DNA of 64,000 nucleotides. Origin: Fischerella sp. PCC 9431. Lineage in GTDB: Bacteria > Cyanobacteriota > Cyanobacteriia > Cyanobacteriales > Nostocaceae. Shown here piece after piece: positions 56,437-64,000 of the stretch. The DNA lies in assembly GCF_000447295.1 (NCBI RefSeq), contig NZ_KE650771.1, positions 4,745,451-4,809,450 on the forward strand, written 5' to 3'. Every line of letters begins with the position of its first letter. Position 1 is the stretch's first letter. The notes beneath the pieces were generated by a model. The model worked only from the letters and a program-made list of their open reading frames with translations. It did not search any database and was not told the origin of the DNA. The position numbers and the translations under genes were made by a program.

Positions 56437-56574
56437 TTAGGCAACTTTAGCCTTAGCTTCTTTCTTGTTCCAAGGAGCATCAATTAATCCCCAAGTTGGG
56501 CTATTGAGTGCTATATCCATATCGCGAGCAAAGATGGCGAAACCGTCGTAACCGTGATAAGGACCGGAGTAATC
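56437..56574 (-). CDS. nifD: 3' fragment of nifD (interrupted by excision element)
   Basis: 45 codons plus stop encode [20 protein letters not shown] and continue to [10 protein letters not shown], the C-terminus of nitrogenase MoFe alpha chain. Reading further upstream the frame leaves nifD and hits a stop at 56596. The break falls in the 11-bp GGATTACTCCG, the recombination core of the nifD element known in Anabaena sp. PCC 7120. The 5' part of nifD must lie beyond 64000. Excision during heterocyst development would restore the full gene. Confidence 0.95.
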
Positions 56575-56575
56575 C
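56565..56575 (-). other. Recombination core site of the nifD element
   Basis: GGATTACTCCG on the minus strand is identical to the 11-bp direct repeat at which XisA recombines in Anabaena sp. PCC 7120 (from memory of that system). In frame it spells the Asp-Tyr-Ser codons of NifD. It marks one boundary of the element. Confidence 0.9.
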
Positions 56576-56623
56576 TTTTTGTGGTTTAATGGCTTTCAAC
56601 AGCTTAATGTTTGTAGTAAGCAG

Positions 56624-56654
56624 TGTTAATCATAAACATTGTTTACTGATGACA
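56624..56654 (+). promoter_or_regulatory. Paired TGT-N9-ACA sites upstream of xisA
   Basis: TGTTAATCATAAACA (56624-56638) and TGTTTACTGATGACA (56640-56654) are two adjacent matches to TGT-N9-ACA, the pattern described for BifA/NtcA binding upstream of xisA in Anabaena. They lie about 40-70 bases before the xisA ATG. A direct repeat TAGGCTAA follows at about 56667-56684. Confidence 0.6.
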
Positions 56655-56693
56655 AATAAATTTTTAGGCTAAATATAGGCTAATACCACAACG

Positions 56694-58112
56694 ATGCAAA
56701 ATCCGGATAAAGACAAGTATCAGCAAGCCTTTGCAGACTTAGAGCTACTGTCATCTACCGACGGCAGTTTTCTTGGCTCCAGTCTGCAAGCAAAGCAACA
56801 AAGGGAGCATATGAGAGCAAAAGTACTACAAGAGTTAGAGAAGGTAAATCTGCGTTTGAAGTCTGCAAAGACAAAAGTATCAATTCGGGAATCGAATGGA
56901 AGTCTGCAATTACGGGCGACGTTACCAATTAAACCGGGAGATAAGGACACAAAGGGAACTGGGAGAAAGCAATACAATCTCAGCTTGAATATTCCCGCCA
57001 ACTTGGATGGACTCAGGACAGCAGAGGAAGAAGCTTATGAATTAGGCAAATTAATTGCCCGTAAAACCTTTGAATGGAACGATAAATATTTAGGCAAAGA
57101 AGCTACGAAAAAAGATGTAAAAACCATAGGTGAGTTACTGGAAAAATTTGAGGACGAGTATTTTAAAACTCATAAACGCACAACCAAAAGCGAACATACA
57201 TTTTTCTATTATTTTTCCCGCACCCAGCGATACACTAATCCTCAAGATTTAGCAACTGCGGAAAATCTCATCAGTTCAATTGAACAAATAGATAAAGAAT
57301 GGGCTAGATATAATGCTGCCAGAGCCATATCTTCCTTTTGCCAGACATTCAATATAGAAATTGACTTGTCTAAATATGCCAAAATGCCTGATCGCAATTC
57401 CCGCAACATCCCTACAGATGCAGAAATCTTATCAGGAATTGCAAAATTTGAAGACTATTTAAATACAAGAGGCAATCAAGTTAATCAAGATGTGAAAGAT
57501 AGCTGGCAACTTTGGCGCTGGACATATGGAATGTTAGCAGTTTTTGGTTTACGTCCCAGAGAAATTTTTATCAACCCTGATATCGATTGGTGGTTAAATT
57601 CAGAAAATGTGGATTTGACATGGAAAGTTCATAAAGATTGTAAAACAGGTGAAAGACAAGCATTACCTTTACATAAAGAATGGATTGAAGAGTTTGATTT
57701 AAGAAACCCTAAATATTTAGAAATGTTGGCAACGGCAATTAGTAAAAAAGATAAAAATAATCATGCAGAAATAACAGCTTTAACACAACGAGTTAGTTGG
57801 TGGTTTCGCAAAATAGGCTTGGATTTCAAACCTTACGATTTACGCCACGCCTGGGCAATTCGAGCGCATATTTTAGGCATACCCATCAAAGCCGCAGCAG
57901 ATAATTTAGGACATAGTGTGCAAGTTCATACGCAAACCTATCAGCGTTGGTTTTCGTTAGATATGCGGAAGCTGGCGATTAATCAAGCGTTGACTAAGAG
58001 GAATGAGATTGAGGTTATTAGAGAGGATAATGCTAGATTGAGGATGGAGAATGAAAGGTTGAAGTTGGAGATTGAAAAGTTAAAAATGGAGTTAGTTTAT
58101 AAGCGAATTTAA
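56694..58112 (+). CDS. xisA: XisA site-specific tyrosine recombinase (nifD element excisase)
   Basis: A 472-residue integrase-fold protein. The catalytic box I arginine is in FGLRPREI (287/289), box II is YDLRHAW with R384 and a Tyr at 381 where most integrases have His, LGH gives H407 and the nucleophile is Y416 in TQTYQRW. The R-Y-R-Y pattern is a known feature of XisA/XisC. The last 35 residues form a coiled coil. It excises the element from nifD in developing heterocysts. The start is ATG. Its position beside the core site matches the Anabaena arrangement. Confidence 0.95.
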   Translation: MQNPDKDKYQQAFADLELLSSTDGSFLGSSLQAKQQREHMRAKVLQELEKVNLRLKSAKTKVSIRESNGSLQLRATLPIKPGDKDTKGTGRKQYNLSLNIPANLDGLRTAEEEAYELGKLIARKTFEWNDKYLGKEATKKDVKTIGELLEKFEDEYFKTHKRTTKSEHTFFYYFSRTQRYTNPQDLATAENLISSIEQIDKEWARYNAARAISSFCQTFNIEIDLSKYAKMPDRNSRNIPTDAEILSGIAKFEDYLNTRGNQVNQDVKDSWQLWRWTYGMLAVFGLRPREIFINPDIDWWLNSENVDLTWKVHKDCKTGERQALPLHKEWIEEFDLRNPKYLEMLATAISKKDKNNHAEITALTQRVSWWFRKIGLDFKPYDLRHAWAIRAHILGIPIKAAADNLGHSVQVHTQTYQRWFSLDMRKLAINQALTKRNEIEVIREDNARLRMENERLKLEIEKLKMELVYKRI

Positions 58113-58345
58113 TAATTGATAATGTGTAATTAATAGATGCTTGTGAGTGTGTTTTTTAATTTTTGAAAAGCTATCTTTTGACAAGCTAGATGAGTTCAAT
58201 AGTCTCGCTTCTGTAAACAAATGCGTGTATCTAAATTCTAAATTCAGCCAACTCACTACAAATTAAGTAGACTTACGGTGTTAATTTGGTAACAATGCTA
58301 ATTATAATTTTTAAAACAGAATTTAATAATTTTAAGGAAGCATTG

Positions 58346-60158
58346 ATGAATCAGATTATTGAATCTTATCTAAGAGATTTTTGTAAAGAGTATGGTTTAG
58401 AAGACTTAAAGAAAGACAAAGCATTTGAGTATTTTGTAAATTTTTGTATTGTTTCAAGGTTACACTCAGAAAGATTTAGCATCGAGGATATCAGTATTGG
58501 TGGCGGAGGGGATAACAGTATTGATGGACTAGCTATCATGGTTAATGAAAATTTAGCTTCTTCTACTGAAGAAATAAATGATTTTAAAAAAAGCATTAAA
58601 TAGGCTGGATGCAAAATTCGTTTTTATACAGACAAAAACATCCAGTAAATTTGATTTAGGACATATAAGTAAGTTTATTCATGGTGTGAGAGACTTTTTC
58701 AAAGATAAGCCATCTAGAGCTACAGGTCAGGAAATTAAAGATTTGATAGAATTAAAAAAACATATTTATTCTTTAAGTGTGTATATGGAAGAAAATCCAG
58801 TTTGTCATATGTATTATGTTACTACTGGAAAATGGGAACAAGATGAAAATTTACTAAGTATTATTAATGATGGGATTGAAGATTTGAAAAAGACTGGCTT
58901 ATTTTCTCCTGGACATGAAGGAGTAAAGTTTATTGCAGTTGATGCAGAATATCTGCAAAACATGTACAAGGAGATACGCAATAAGATCACGAGAGAAATT
59001 AACTTTGAGAGGCACACTATATTGCCACAGATAGACAAAGTTCAAGAAGCATATATTGGTATTTTACCTTGTAAAGAATATTTGAAACTTATATCTAGTA
59101 CAGATGGTACACTACAAAAAAGTTTATTTTATGATAATGTCAGAGACTTTCAGGGCGATAATATTGTTAACTCTGAAATTAATGAAACTATTAAAAATCA
59201 AGAAAGAAGAGATAGTTTTGTTATGTTAAACAATGGAGTAACTATCGTTGCTAAGTCAATCAATAAAACAGGTACATACTTTAAAATAAAAGATTATCAA
59301 ATAGTTAACGGATGCCAAACAAGTCATATCTTATATAAAAATAAAGATTTGTTAGATGAAAAAATCTATTTGCCAATAAAGTTAATTATTACAGGAGATG
59401 AAGAGATAACAAATCAGATTATTAGAGCAACTAATAGGCAAACAGAGGTGAAACCAGAAGCTTTTTGGTCATTACAACCATTCAATAAAAAGCTTGAAGA
59501 ATTTTATGAAAGCTTTAATAATGATGAAGAACGTAAACATCGCTTATTTTATGAAAGAAGATCAAAGCAGTACAATAGCTCTAACTCAATTGTTGATAAC
59601 GATAAAGTAATTTCGACTGCTATTCAAGTTAAGTGTTTTCTTGCCATGTTCCTTAATGAACCACACAGTAGCTCATGTAGATACTATGGTGAACTTCTGA
59701 AAAATAATACCCGGAGAATTTTTGTAGAAAATCATAGCTTTTATCCCTACTATTTAAGTACTTATACATTTTATAGATTAGAAAATTTAATAAAGACCAA
59801 TAATTTAAATCAGTTTTACAAACGCTTTAAGTATCAAATTATTATGCTCTTCAGGATACTAGCATTATCTGATTCAAAGCTTGATGCTGATTTTATTAAT
59901 AATAAGGAAAACGAAAAAAGATTTGTTCAATTACAACAAATATTACGCAATGAAGAGCATAGTTTAATTTTATTTAAGCAATCAATAGATGTTCTAGATA
60001 AAGTACTAGAAAATTATAAGAGTGGAAAATCTGCTTTTAATAGTCTCCCAGAAAGACTTAAAGCGTTTACTAATGATTTGATAGAATTTACACAACAGTA
60101 TAAACAAAACAAAAATTCTAAACCATTTAATAAACCTGTATTAAAACTAAAAACCTAA
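58346..60158 (+). CDS. AIPR-family abortive-infection protein, frameshifted at A7
   Basis: Two overlapping frames read as one protein. The first runs from ATG 58346 (AAGGAAG upstream) to a stop at 58601-58603; the second carries on to 60158. Removing one A from the AAAAAAA run near 58588 joins them as INDFKKALNRLDAKFVFIQTKTS. The joined protein (about 600 residues) has the AIPR features: GGGGDNSIDGLAI, FVFIQTKTS, SFVMLNNGVTIVAKS and YQIVNGCQTSHILY. AIPR proteins are linked to phage abortive infection. It may be a pseudogene, or be rescued by slippage at the homopolymer. Very AT-rich relative to the nif genes. Confidence 0.8.
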
Positions 60159-60378
60159 TAATAGGGAACGTGAATATCTGTCCTGAAAAACTAAAATTAT
60201 AAGTAATTAAAGTGAAAGAGGTTTTCATCCCGATTTGCAAGACTATTTGGTGAAATTGAATAATATTTGATATTAAATATAAGATGATGAGGTTGAAAAA
60301 ATGATCGCCTCAATATATGCTGGAGTAAAAGAGAAAGTATTTCAACAAGCGATCGCTCGTTGATCATTACGTATGGTA
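60159..60378. other. Spacer between AIPR gene and insertion sequence
   Basis: No supported gene. A short frame (60301-60363, starting MIASIYAGVKEKVFQQ) stops before the insertion sequence and may be a remnant of a gene cut by it. Confidence 0.3.
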
Positions 60379-61518
60379 ATACCAATTCACGAAAAATTTG
60401 ATTCAAATAAAGCATCAAGAATAAAATCCCACCCTGTTATAGAAGCAACAATTGATGTGTTTAATTTCTCCAAACGCTTCCAGATAAATTGTCTTAATTC
60501 ATCCAACGTTCCAAAACTTTCCCACGCCAAATATCTTTTAACTTCTTCCCACAATCGCTCAATTGGATTAACTTGCGGTGTATGTGGAGGTTGAAATAAC
60601 AAAATTATATTCTCTGGTATCTGAAGATGTTGACTAAAATGAAAAGCACCATTGTCTAACTGAATAATATGTATATCTTGGGTATAATTAGCAGAGAATT
60701 TTTCTAAAAAAATCTGAAAACAAGCCGCATTTAAATGAGAAAACTCCCAAATAAAATATTCTCCCGTTAACGGTTCTACTAATCCGTATAAATAAAAATT
60801 CTCCCGTTTCCATTGCATGATACCGATAGGTTTAGTCCCAAAGTTGGTAATTAATCTACCCGCTTCAGTCTTTAACCCCACACGGCTTTCATCTTCGCAC
60901 CAGTATCTAATTCTTCTTTGCTTATCTATTGGTGGTATAACATATTTCTTAATTACTTCTATGTATTGTGGAAGTTTTTTTTAAACTCCTCTTCCGCTTC
61001 TGGTTGGTGTTTAATACTTACTGCACGCGGTACTTTTAGCTTCGCTTTCATTCGATAACGCACTGTATCGCGTACTACTTTGTATGACGCTCTCACACCT
61101 TGGACTGCTTTTAACCATGTTCGGATTTCTTCATAACTTTTAAATCCCTGGGGGTCTTCTAGTTCCTTTGAAAGTTGCTCTCGAACATCTGTGTTAATAA
61201 TTGGTGGTCGCCCTGAACCTTTTTTTCTTGATACCAGAGTGTCAATTCCCGATTCTGCATAAGCCTTTAACCACCTTTGCACTGTGGCACTTCCTCTTCC
61301 CAACACTACTGCCAAATCTTGGATTGTCTTTACCTGCTGTATTTTCAGTAAATACAATGCTTGAATACGTTCTTTCCCTAATACGGTTTTTTGTTTTTTC
61401 AGCAGTTCACGTAATTCTTCTGCTGACTCTTTTATTTTTACTTTCGTGACTCCAGCCATGAACTTCTGCTCATATTTCTGATTTAACTATTTTTATCATT
61501 TTTTTAGTGAAATGGTAT
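60379..61518. mobile_element. IS630-family insertion sequence
   Basis: Bounded by about 23-bp imperfect inverted repeats: ATACCAATTCACGAAAAA at 60379 and, read from the other end at 61518, ATACCATTTCACTAAAAA. It contains a two-frame DDE transposase on the minus strand. A TA lies just outside the left end; the right flank reads CA, so a TA target duplication is not clear. Length is 1140 bp. It is inserted inside the nifD element. Confidence 0.85.
60387..61459 (-). CDS. IS630-family transposase, expressed by -1 frameshift
   Basis: The first frame (61459 to a stop at 60959) holds the helix-turn-helix part (LAVVLGRGSATVQRWLKAYAESG, GSGRPPI). The second frame supplies the catalytic part, with the first Asp in YWCEDESRVG, the second in IIQLDNGAFH and the Glu in NPIERLWEEVKRYL. 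They join at TTTAAAAAAAAC (about 60978-60990) by re-reading one A, the -1 slippage used by many IS630 elements. The reconstructed enzyme is about 355 residues, normal for the family. The stop codon lies inside the left inverted repeat. Confidence 0.88.
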
Positions 61519-61733
61519 CACTCGTGCGATCGCATCAAGATGCTTGCTGAAGTCGAAACGGAAGATGATCCTGATGGTGAAGAAGAACTGACTGAATAGT
61601 TTTATTTTGGCGATCACCTTACTGTTAGGGATGAAGTCATGCGATCGCTTACACTAGGTTTGTACATTCGTGACCCAAAGACTGCTTTAGCTTTCCCAGA
61701 CTGAGGCACAAAGACAAATCGTATCTTTGCTTA
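61519..61733. other. Spacer with a possible C-terminal gene remnant
   Basis: One frame up to about 61597 reads CDRIKMLAEVETEDDPDGEE and stops, resembling the tail of a gene whose 5' part was lost when the insertion sequence arrived. A second open stretch, LSQTEAQRQIVSLLND, overlaps the start of the methyltransferase gene. Neither can be assigned. Confidence 0.35.
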
Positions 61734-63917
61734 ATGACTAACTCTTTTCAACTTCAACTGTTCAACTCCAGTTCTGATGATTTTCCCAAAATTGTTACAG
61801 AAAGAACAGGTAGTTTTATTGATAATATGAAATTACCAATTCATCGGTGGTTTCGTTACTCGGCTGGTTTCTCTGCGGCTTGGGTTGAGCAATTAATTAA
61901 AGAATTAGAACCGCAAACTATTCTTGATCCATTTGCAGGTTCTGGTACTGCTTGTATTGTGGCTGATCAGTTAGGTGTTACTTCTTACGGTGTTGAAGCA
62001 CATCCTTTTGTTTATCGATTGGCTAAAGGAAAGCTTTCATGGAATGTTGATAGCTATGATTTTTTGGTAGCAATAAATGAAATTAAAGATTTTGCAGCTA
62101 ATTTAAAACTAAAATTACCTGAAAATATTCCCGCCTTATTAAGCAAGTGTTATACGGAAGTAACACTAATAAATCTCTTAAAAATAAAGCAAGCATATTT
62201 AGAAATTGCTCCAAACTTATCTGAAGATTTACAATCTCTAATTTTTTTGGCAGTTTGCGCTATTTTACGCTCATCCAGTCATGTAGGTACGGCACAATGG
62301 CAATATATTCTCCCAAATAAACGAAAAGTCAAAATTTATGAACCTTTTGATGCACTAGATAAGCAAGTTTCTCTTATGCGAGAAGATATGCTTTATATGC
62401 AGTCTCTTAATAAAGTCAGCCGAGCTAACCTGATTCAAGGAGATGCGAGAAATTTAGTAGGTGTTCCAGATAAATCCATTGATTTAGTTATCACATCTCC
62501 ACCCTATGCAAATAATTATGATTATGCAGATGCAACACGTCTCGAAATGACTTTTTGGGGTGAAGTTAATTCCTGGGGAGATTTACATGAGACAGTGCGT
62601 AAATTTTTAATTCGCTCCAGTTCACAACACGTTTCTAAAGAGAAACTTAGCTTAGATGCTCTGATAGCTGAATCTGTTATTGAACCAATCAAAGATGAAC
62701 TAATACCTGTTTGTAAAGAGTTAGAAGAAGTTCGAGCGACTAAGGGTGGAAATAAAGCATATCATACAATGATTGCTGCTTACTTTGCTGACATGGCAAA
62801 CGTATTCCACGCTCTGCGTCAAGTTACAACAGATAATTGTCAAGTTTGTATTGTAGTGGGAGATTCAGCACCTTATGGTGTATATGTTCCTGTTGAGAAG
62901 TGGTTAGGTAAATTAGCGATCGCAGCAGGTTTTGATTGTTGGTCTTTTGAACAGATTAGACAACGGAATGTCAAGTGGAAAAATCGAAAACATGATGTTC
63001 CACTCCACGAAGGAAGACTTTGGATAGAAAGCAAAATTATGGCACAGTCACCATCACATAAATTCGGTCAAGCACTAGGAAAACTCCTTGAAGATATTGT
63101 ACTTGATGATATTCTTAAACCTCGACTACAGCAGTTTGCCCAAACTAAAAACTATTATCTTGATTCACAAAAAGCGCGTCCAGCAAGGACAGGAAAAAAG
63201 GTTACATGGGAAGACAAGTATGGCAATAAACATGATTTAGATTTTGTTATCGAGGTTGATGGTACAGATGAAAAACTTGGTAGACCAGTTGCATTTATTG
63301 AGTCAGCATGGCGGAGATATACAAAACACTCCAAGAACAAAGCTCAAGAAATACAAGGGGCTATATTACCAATTATTGAACTTCATCATCTGTCAGCACC
63401 ATTTTATGGGGTAGTGTTAGCTGGAGATTTTACAAAACCAGCACTAGAACAACTAAAAAATAATGGCTTTGCAGTTATTTATATTCCTTATAAAGATGTA
63501 GTTTCAGCATTCAAATCAATTGATTTTGATGTTGCCTTTGATGAAGATACTCCGGATGAAATTTATTCAACAGCATCAAAGAAATTAGCAAGTCTTAGTA
63601 GTTCAGACAAAGAGAAACTTAGACAGGCTCTAATGCAAGTTTCTCAAAAAGAAGTAGACACTTTTATGACAACACTCAGAAACTGTCTTGAGCGTTACAT
63701 TACTAAAATAGTTATCATGCCACTTTTCGGAGTGAGATATGAGTTTGAGAGTATTGATAATGCCCTTCAAGAGTTAAATACACTTGATATTGAAAACCCT
63801 GGTGGTAAATTTGAAAGGTTTGAAGTTATTGTTGACTACAACAACAATGATACGATTCGGGCAACCTTCCAAAATAAAAATTTACTTGCAGATTTCCTAA
63901 GAAAGTTAGAAGATTAA
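61734..63917 (+). CDS. DNA methyltransferase with fused C-terminal nuclease-like domain
   Basis: A 727-residue protein. Motif I is DPFAGSGT (65-72) and the catalytic motif IV is SPPY (255-258), so it is an amino-methyltransferase (N4-C or N6-A) with the I-before-IV order and a long insertion that may recognise DNA. Residues about 490-545 look like a PD-(D/E)XK nuclease core: DLDFVIEVDG with D501/D503 and AFIESAWRRYTKHSKNKAQE with E523. If so, this is a single-chain restriction-modification enzyme. No separate restriction or specificity gene is seen before the window end. The start is ATG. Confidence 0.75.
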   Translation: MTNSFQLQLFNSSSDDFPKIVTERTGSFIDNMKLPIHRWFRYSAGFSAAWVEQLIKELEPQTILDPFAGSGTACIVADQLGVTSYGVEAHPFVYRLAKGKLSWNVDSYDFLVAINEIKDFAANLKLKLPENIPALLSKCYTEVTLINLLKIKQAYLEIAPNLSEDLQSLIFLAVCAILRSSSHVGTAQWQYILPNKRKVKIYEPFDALDKQVSLMREDMLYMQSLNKVSRANLIQGDARNLVGVPDKSIDLVITSPPYANNYDYADATRLEMTFWGEVNSWGDLHETVRKFLIRSSSQHVSKEKLSLDALIAESVIEPIKDELIPVCKELEEVRATKGGNKAYHTMIAAYFADMANVFHALRQVTTDNCQVCIVVGDSAPYGVYVPVEKWLGKLAIAAGFDCWSFEQIRQRNVKWKNRKHDVPLHEGRLWIESKIMAQSPSHKFGQALGKLLEDIVLDDILKPRLQQFAQTKNYYLDSQKARPARTGKKVTWEDKYGNKHDLDFVIEVDGTDEKLGRPVAFIESAWRRYTKHSKNKAQEIQGAILPIIELHHLSAPFYGVVLAGDFTKPALEQLKNNGFAVIYIPYKDVVSAFKSIDFDVAFDEDTPDEIYSTASKKLASLSSSDKEKLRQALMQVSQKEVDTFMTTLRNCLERYITKIVIMPLFGVRYEFESIDNALQELNTLDIENPGGKFERFEVIVDYNNNDTIRATFQNKNLLADFLRKLED

Positions 63918-64000
63918 TTTGGCTGACAACTTAGTTGGAGGGAACTTTTAACAAGTTCTCATCAACGCCTTAATTGTTGAGTTTAAATTTAATTCAGGCG
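63918..64000. other. Element DNA to window end
   Basis: The last 83 bases follow the methyltransferase stop. They contain no gene that can be recognised; GTTGAGTTTAAATTTAATTC is near the edge. The nifD element continues beyond. Confidence 0.3.

Follow-up and report, generated by a model that had tools for sequence, protein, structure and literature searches.

A variable slot beside xisA in nifD excision elements, seen from Fischerella sp. PCC 9431, as a candidate hotspot for defence and addiction genes

The nifD elements inserted at position 1355 of the gene, as presented in the accessible text of Hilton et al. 2016 (PMC4874684), share a target position, direct repeats and a variable cargo, and they carry an xisA-type tyrosine recombinase gene near the 3′ end of nifD and on the strand opposite to it. 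The advantage of heterocyst elements is termed a mystery in the same text, and the 11-bp nifD repeat, GGATTACTCCG, is named in a second paper (PMC3610870, likewise cited from its accessible part). Here we describe an element of this kind in a 64,000-nucleotide stretch of the Fischerella sp. PCC 9431 genome, hereafter the window (contig NZ_KE650771.1, abbreviated C1; C1:4745451-4809450), and compare it with 80 related elements. The window element belongs, as the position-1355 variant, to the ordinary XisA-type interruptions of nifD, and the comparison suggests that the stretch beside xisA may be a slot in which defence-type genes come and go.

The 3′ part of nifD, located from the sequence, tblastn and the joined NifD, occupies window positions 56437..56575 on the reverse strand and ends in an exact GGATTACTCCG core on the same strand (56565..56575, starting at C1:4802015), which was found by core search. 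The original prediction had recognized an element interrupting nifD from this core and xisA, and had placed the second core past position 64000; indeed, an exact partner lies at C1:4811286-4811296, equivalent to window positions 65836-65846 and 1,836 bp beyond the window end. The resulting core-to-core element is 9,271 bp long with a GC content of 34%. The whole genome contains four exact copies of the core, two of which bracket the nifD element; the other two are distant from nifD (C1:1714136 and C1:2074819). Joining the flanks in silico gives, in frame, an uninterrupted NifD of 496 aa, in which the core covers codons W451-D-Y-S-G455 and starts at nifD nt 1353, so that the gene is interrupted at about nt 1355, as in the described variant. 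In another genome of the same genus (G058), the whole nifD reads across the same core, a natural empty site that rules out a chance match. The element is real because both cores, the rebuilt NifD and this natural empty site are all present. In a third same-genus genome (G059), nifD is broken at another place; at G059:C1:10569-19711 the gene is split near codon 262 into oppositely oriented halves with ~8 kb between them.

From the nifD 3′ side, the element holds xisA, an AIPR/AbiU abortive-infection gene, an IS630 copy, a fused methyltransferase–restriction (M-R) gene, and open reading frames (ORFs) of 294 and 127 aa. The AIPR gene and the M-R fusion both lie within the core-to-core span, which rules out a true boundary that would leave this cargo outside, as the original prediction had allowed for. 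The xisA gene (56694..58112, forward strand, close to the 3′ end of nifD and oriented against it) is an open frame for a tyrosine site-specific recombinase of 472 aa, as identified from the ORF, its relatives and a match to Phage_integrase (E 1.5e-4, under that family's cut-off). The R, YxxR and Y motifs are visible in its translation, and in XisA the His of the R-H-R-Y motif is replaced by Tyr according to the accessible text of PMC3610870. The best 80 of 96 XisA relatives were taken, which are 79-94% identical to the window protein; all 80 adjoin a 3′ part of nifD and, with the window, they define the 81 elements considered below. The ratio of nonsynonymous to synonymous substitution rates (dN/dS) for xisA is 0.066 between the window and one relative, L017.

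Complete elements (45 of the 81, the other 36 being unextended or truncated at contig ends) range from 2.0 to 88.0 kb, with a median of 12.9 kb. All together, the 81 elements comprise 1.11 Mb and 1,015 ORFs of ≥90 aa, called with a simple script and grouped in 417 clusters. Thirty cluster representatives, picked by eye from 50 listed and mainly from both variable ends of the elements, were scanned singly against PADLOC at cut-offs of 1e-8 and 1e-6, and matches were seen in 16 of the 30, with one (E 3e-7) left uncounted; Pfam supplied the HEPN and NB-ARC labels. On this basis 47 of the 1,015 ORFs are labelled as defence, and these are found in 25 of the 81 elements and in 18 of the 45 complete ones. 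A C5 DNA methyltransferase (MTase) stands with a HEPN protein and an NsnA-like protein in L019 and L030, and without the latter in L031. An OLD-type ATPase with a partner is seen in five elements, the partner resembling RloB weakly (E 0.0018, below cut-off). SduA (Shedu), PDC-S11 and D12 MTases each occur in three elements, and further labels, besides AIPR and M-R, include a type II restriction–modification (R-M) pair, type I M and S genes, DRT8, a pAgo-like fragment, TIR proteins and NB-ARC-TPR.

Two elements are noted here for their content. That of Nostoc sp. FACHB-110 (L089:9872-21412 together with L127) contains an AIPR gene, an OLD pair, a type II R-M pair, SduA and a partial M-R gene. 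In Nostocales cyanobacterium HT-58-2, the nifD element (72 kb; L028:16479-17907 and L119:17565-17900) carries a 20-repeat array of clustered regularly interspaced short palindromic repeats (CRISPR), part of a second array with a different repeat, and a Cas7-like protein closest to type III-D Cas7 (E 0.0019); this would place CRISPR memory on DNA that is expected to leave in heterocysts.

Gene maps reveal that backbone genes are conserved in 58 of the 81 elements, many of the remaining 23 being cut by contig ends, and that two stretches vary, one separating xisA from the backbone and one at the far end. The window element itself is without any backbone gene. In the backbone-bearing elements, the xisA side holds 22 defence ORFs among 227 (205 kb; a minimum, since the scan was partial). 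The backbone region holds 3 among 373 (393 kb), or 4 among 373 when a retron-type reverse transcriptase from a later full scan is entered as one ORF. That scan covered 71 of the 72 backbone cluster representatives of ≥150 aa and lists the best 25 of 66 matching families, without member names. By ORF, the xisA side exceeds the backbone region (22/227 vs 4/373) with a Fisher P of 7.6e-7, and by distinct systems 7 stand against 2 (P 0.0098); L028 enters these counts by its xisA side only. On the xisA side of two elements (L042 and L043, at ~2.9-6.2 kb), the slot is occupied by a common five-gene module of unknown type (clusters 95–99). The arrangement is one of variable defence cargo between conserved anchors, as expected of a hotspot, with a caveat over the candidate family PDC-S03 that is taken up below. 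From its gene content, the xisA-side slot looks like a defence and addiction hotspot on a developmentally excised element.

DNA MTases permit a comparison with whole genomes. Across 45 genomes (363 Mb), hits to three DNA-MTase families number 568, and at least 10 of them fall inside elements (0.855 Mb, or 0.24% of the genomes) where 1.3 would be expected, a ratio of 7.6 (P 1.3e-6); the ten hits form three homology groups and so reflect few independent events. For PF01555, the counts are those of 46 genomes minus the 6 hits of an added incomplete genome, that of L089. As a second comparison, 400 kb of random chromosome was scanned as 20 regions falling in 7 genomes, with 258 of 260 ORFs of ≥150 aa covered (two long ones were omitted) and the best 25 of 56 and best 25 of 50 matching families listed. 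Among the matches listed, we judge 2 to 5 to be specific systems: a type II R-M pair and a pAgo with a Cas4-like nuclease, with SngB, Orf5 and HEC-06 as less certain additions. Matches to a generic ATPase, a kinase, TnpB-like and GlgB-like proteins, Csx1 and mad6 were set aside. A hand tally of the elements, in which the broken window AIPR is included, gives ~34 system copies in 1.11 Mb, that is ~31 per Mb vs 5-12.5 per Mb in the control (P 0.0015-0.033).

Taken as a whole, we give a probability of about 0.6 to the explanation that the xisA-side stretch of these elements is a high-turnover slot for defence, R-M and toxin–antitoxin (TA) modules, whose cargo persists through restriction and through a penalty on loss. 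In dividing vegetative cells, the modules would be present and able to act, and here the predicted M-R fusion would cut unmethylated foreign DNA. In the terminal heterocyst, we infer that XisA of this strain would excise the element precisely and so rebuild nifD, a step that would be costless because the heterocyst does not divide. The cargo would probably persist by restricting invading DNA and by imposing a penalty whenever a dividing cell accidentally lost the element. A host gain from phage restriction and an enforced retention of the element may both hold. The original prediction had the element thrown away in heterocysts, which is too strong, as an excised circle can stay in the heterocyst for a time.

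The M-R gene (61734..63917, forward strand) is an open frame of 727 aa that PADLOC profiles identify as a DNA MTase fused to a type II restriction endonuclease (REase), with MTase_II matching residues 24-432 (E 5.9e-134) and REase_II residues 436-722 (E 8.4e-64). The translation contains DPFAGSGT and TSPPY, which we take to be the S-adenosylmethionine and catalytic motifs of a DNA MTase. L017 has a fused homologue as well, and compared with it the window fusion gives a dN/dS of 0.13 (M part 0.21, R part 0.07); the homologues of L022 and L027 are each two adjacent ORFs. Because these ratios are low, the R part included, the fusion is, as judged from sequence comparison, under purifying selection and kept as a protein. 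A PDB sequence search with M-R gave matches to the MTase part only, involving two distinct sequences. A structure model of the REase domain, made from four sequences, was poor (mean predicted local distance difference test score 64.8), and a structure search against the PDB returned nothing at E ≤0.001 (best E 1.7e-2); the two top matches, AF1548 and the restriction enzyme EcoO109I, fall below threshold and were set aside as evidence. Because the AIPR gene is frameshifted, the predicted M-R fusion is the only credible working system in the element of this strain.

The strongest alternative is that dispensable DNA simply gathers passing accessory genes at a passive landing site, with no selection tied to the element. 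Some of what weighs against our explanation speaks for this one. Defence genes are common among mobile genes, and cargo turnover and decay are high: decay is common across the elements, affecting AIPR in the window and L013 and M-R in L012, L089 and L163. In the window, AIPR lies in two overlapping frames and has no complete ORF, and in Chlorogloeopsis fritschii PCC 6912 (L013) a deletion remnant is all that is left of it. The M-R gene is a remnant in L012; in L163 (G084) it is stopped at 616 aa, between xisA and the 5′ part of nifD, where it adjoins two ORFs that by eye resemble the type II R-M pair of L089. In L089 it apparently continues on another contig, where MTase residues 58-400 only were found. 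It also occurs outside nifD elements, fused in G087 and probably in G083, and split in G094. Also against our own explanation, 56 of the 81 elements show no labelled defence ORF, a count drawn from a partly scanned set in which 36 elements are incomplete. An uninterrupted nifD (97-99% protein identity) is seen in two of the three further genomes from the genus, so that the element is readily absent. Copies of the same system in related strains are not independent, the enrichment over random chromosome is modest, and accessory DNA generally may be defence-rich.

The slot contrast itself is sensitive to PDC-S03, which matches two backbone representatives (best E 4.7e-22) and is left out of the main count. 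Counted as a system, it brings the comparison to 7 vs 3 (P 0.023); were it to represent a frequent cluster with 14 to 17 ORFs, the ORF contrast would drop to P 0.03-0.07. Because decay and absence are so frequent, passive accumulation is a serious rival, possible and yet, in our estimate, on the unlikely side. It does not readily accommodate the purifying selection on the M-R fusion or the position of the genes, for in the same elements the far end, which is also variable, has 7 defence ORFs among 190 (216 kb) vs 22 among 227 on the xisA side (P 0.02, with both sides partly scanned).

Seen against these observations, the original prediction of a phage-defence island stood in its anatomy and in the recurrence of defence cargo, which extends well beyond the two window genes once other nifD elements are compared; it did not stand for the AIPR gene, which is broken here, leaving the M-R fusion alone as credible. 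Its list of cargo (AIPR, methyltransferase-nuclease fusion and IS630) was right in that all three lie inside, and it had overlooked the AIPR frameshift. The possibility it had named, that both genes are absent or broken in all relatives, is contradicted by L089, whose AIPR is intact, and by L017, whose fused M-R is open. Selection for retention of the element survives as one reading where two are available (host benefit and addiction), and is weakened by the two same-genus genomes without it.

Addiction, taken by itself, would mean that R-M and TA genes are kept because a dividing cell from which stray XisA recombination has removed the element dies or stalls, while terminal heterocysts escape since they do not divide and their DNA is still methylated. 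R-M and TA genes do recur in nifD elements. When 140 of 166 small element ORFs (90-175 aa) were scanned, the families listed (best 25 of 43) gave at least 10 ORFs of DUF5615, which is presumably toxin-like, 8 of HigB, 2 of ParE, 2 of PIN and 1 of PemK. None of these five families is among the best 25 of 48 listed for the control, in which 68 of 68 ORFs were scanned. The element scan covered 42 elements and omitted 16 clusters, mostly common ones, as well as L028, L081 and L083, omissions that inflate the TA share; the four ORFs of the window are among the 26 left unscanned. Among the omitted clusters, 8 and 12 are small-gene pairs that by eye are like xisH/xisI of the fdxN element and that are frequent in nifD elements using XisA, and one small element ORF matched XisI in the same scan. 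A further point for addiction comes from Bacillus, whose skin element is removed in a terminal cell too and carries TA loci proposed to maintain it (PMC4147584, accessible text). We nevertheless doubt addiction as the explanation. Pfam and PADLOC family scans of the element proteins recognized no TA pair in the window element, many elements are without a labelled R-M gene, and AIPR, DRT, Shedu, TIR and CRISPR are not known as classic addiction cargo. In addition, two Nostoc strains with vs without the nifD element grew alike in the accessible account of Hilton et al. 2016 (PMC4874684), whatever cargo those elements may carry.

The AIPR/AbiU gene is present as a frameshift-truncated 5′ piece (58346..58603, forward strand), which matches AbiU profile positions 2-81, and a 3′ piece with the PF10592 domain (58578..60158, forward strand), which matches positions 82-514. 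The assignment is supported by E values of 6.8e-47 for PF10592 in Pfam and 1.3e-109 for AbiU in PADLOC. Compared with the intact 603-aa copy of Nostoc sp. FACHB-110 (L089), which is likewise the first gene after xisA, the window copy has a one-base insertion in a T/A tract. A search of 46 genomes, to which that of L089 was added because it bears AIPR, found 78 AIPR genes, two of them placed in nifD elements (window and L089); no second copy was found in the window genome at E 1e-5, and a PDB sequence search with the intact L089 protein gave no match. As assembled, then, the AIPR gene of the window genome is, by its sequence, already decaying. That the break is instead an assembly error or a slippage-prone, phase-variable tract, with a gene that works in this strain, seems improbable to us: it is a single base within a T/A run and dN/dS of the downstream part is 0.09 vs L089, but adjacent nif genes are full-length ORFs in the same assembly and the gene has decayed differently in the L013 relative.

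The IS630-family insertion sequence (~60375..61527, reverse strand, its limits taken from copies in other genomes) contains an ORF at 60959-61459, towards the end of which there is an A-run, and a second at 60387-60881. It is located between AIPR and M-R, which rules it out as the cause of the AIPR break. Past the window end, on the reverse strand, are the 294-aa ORF with a Cys-rich C-terminus (window-equivalent 64039-64923) and the 127-aa ORF with a repetitive Asn/Gly tail (window-equivalent 65054-65437). The L033 element contains this far-end pair in an unchanged order; for the 127-aa ORF, L019 also contains a relative. Neither ORF has a convincing family match in Pfam or PADLOC. The Asn/Gly tail is reminiscent of amyloid-signalling tails, a likeness that was set aside since the ORF has neither a family match nor a second genome copy.

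Should the xisA-side slot prove to be a locus where defence and addiction genes recur, what benefit the elements bring would become testable gene by gene, and programmed DNA loss would give a bacterium different immune repertoires in its dividing line and in a terminal cell type. Defence cargo beside xisA may help to explain why the elements persist, and new defence systems could be sought next to the xisA anchor. A stronger version, which we advance tentatively and think unlikely, has the slot as an immune and addiction locus partitioned between soma and germline, in which R-M, abortive-infection, CRISPR and TA modules would restrict phage and punish stray excision in the vegetative line, would be excised only in the terminal heterocyst, and would through this coupling keep the elements in nifD.

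Parts of this picture are already known, as far as the accessible texts go: methyltransferase and nuclease genes on Nodularia elements, a skin element proposed to be held by its TA loci, and defence hotspots in P2 and P4. Among the matches listed in our literature searches, as judged from titles and the start of abstracts, none linked heterocyst or cyanobacterial elements to restriction, abortive infection, defence or CRISPR, most subscription literature lying outside the search. The accessible text on the position-1355 elements (PMC4874684) differs from the present account in having no description of defence cargo or of a slot. The hupL and nifH1 elements of Nodularia spumigena CCY9414 (PMC3610870, accessible text) are alike in carrying a DNA-cytosine methyltransferase with an HNH endonuclease and a DNA modification methylase; they differ as single gene finds in other host genes, given there without a defence reading. 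The Bacillus subtilis skin element in sigK (PMC4147584, accessible text) likewise rebuilds its gene by excision in a terminal cell and has TA loci, whereas its host is unrelated and its named cargo is TA and arsenic resistance, not R-M or AIPR. Finally, the antiviral hotspots of P2 phages and P4 satellites (Rousset et al. 2022, PMC9122126, accessible text) share with the xisA-side slot a short variable stretch between conserved anchors that holds many unrelated defence systems. Those belong to phages and satellites and their activity was tested, whereas the candidate slot beside xisA is known from its genes alone and sits on a developmentally excised element.

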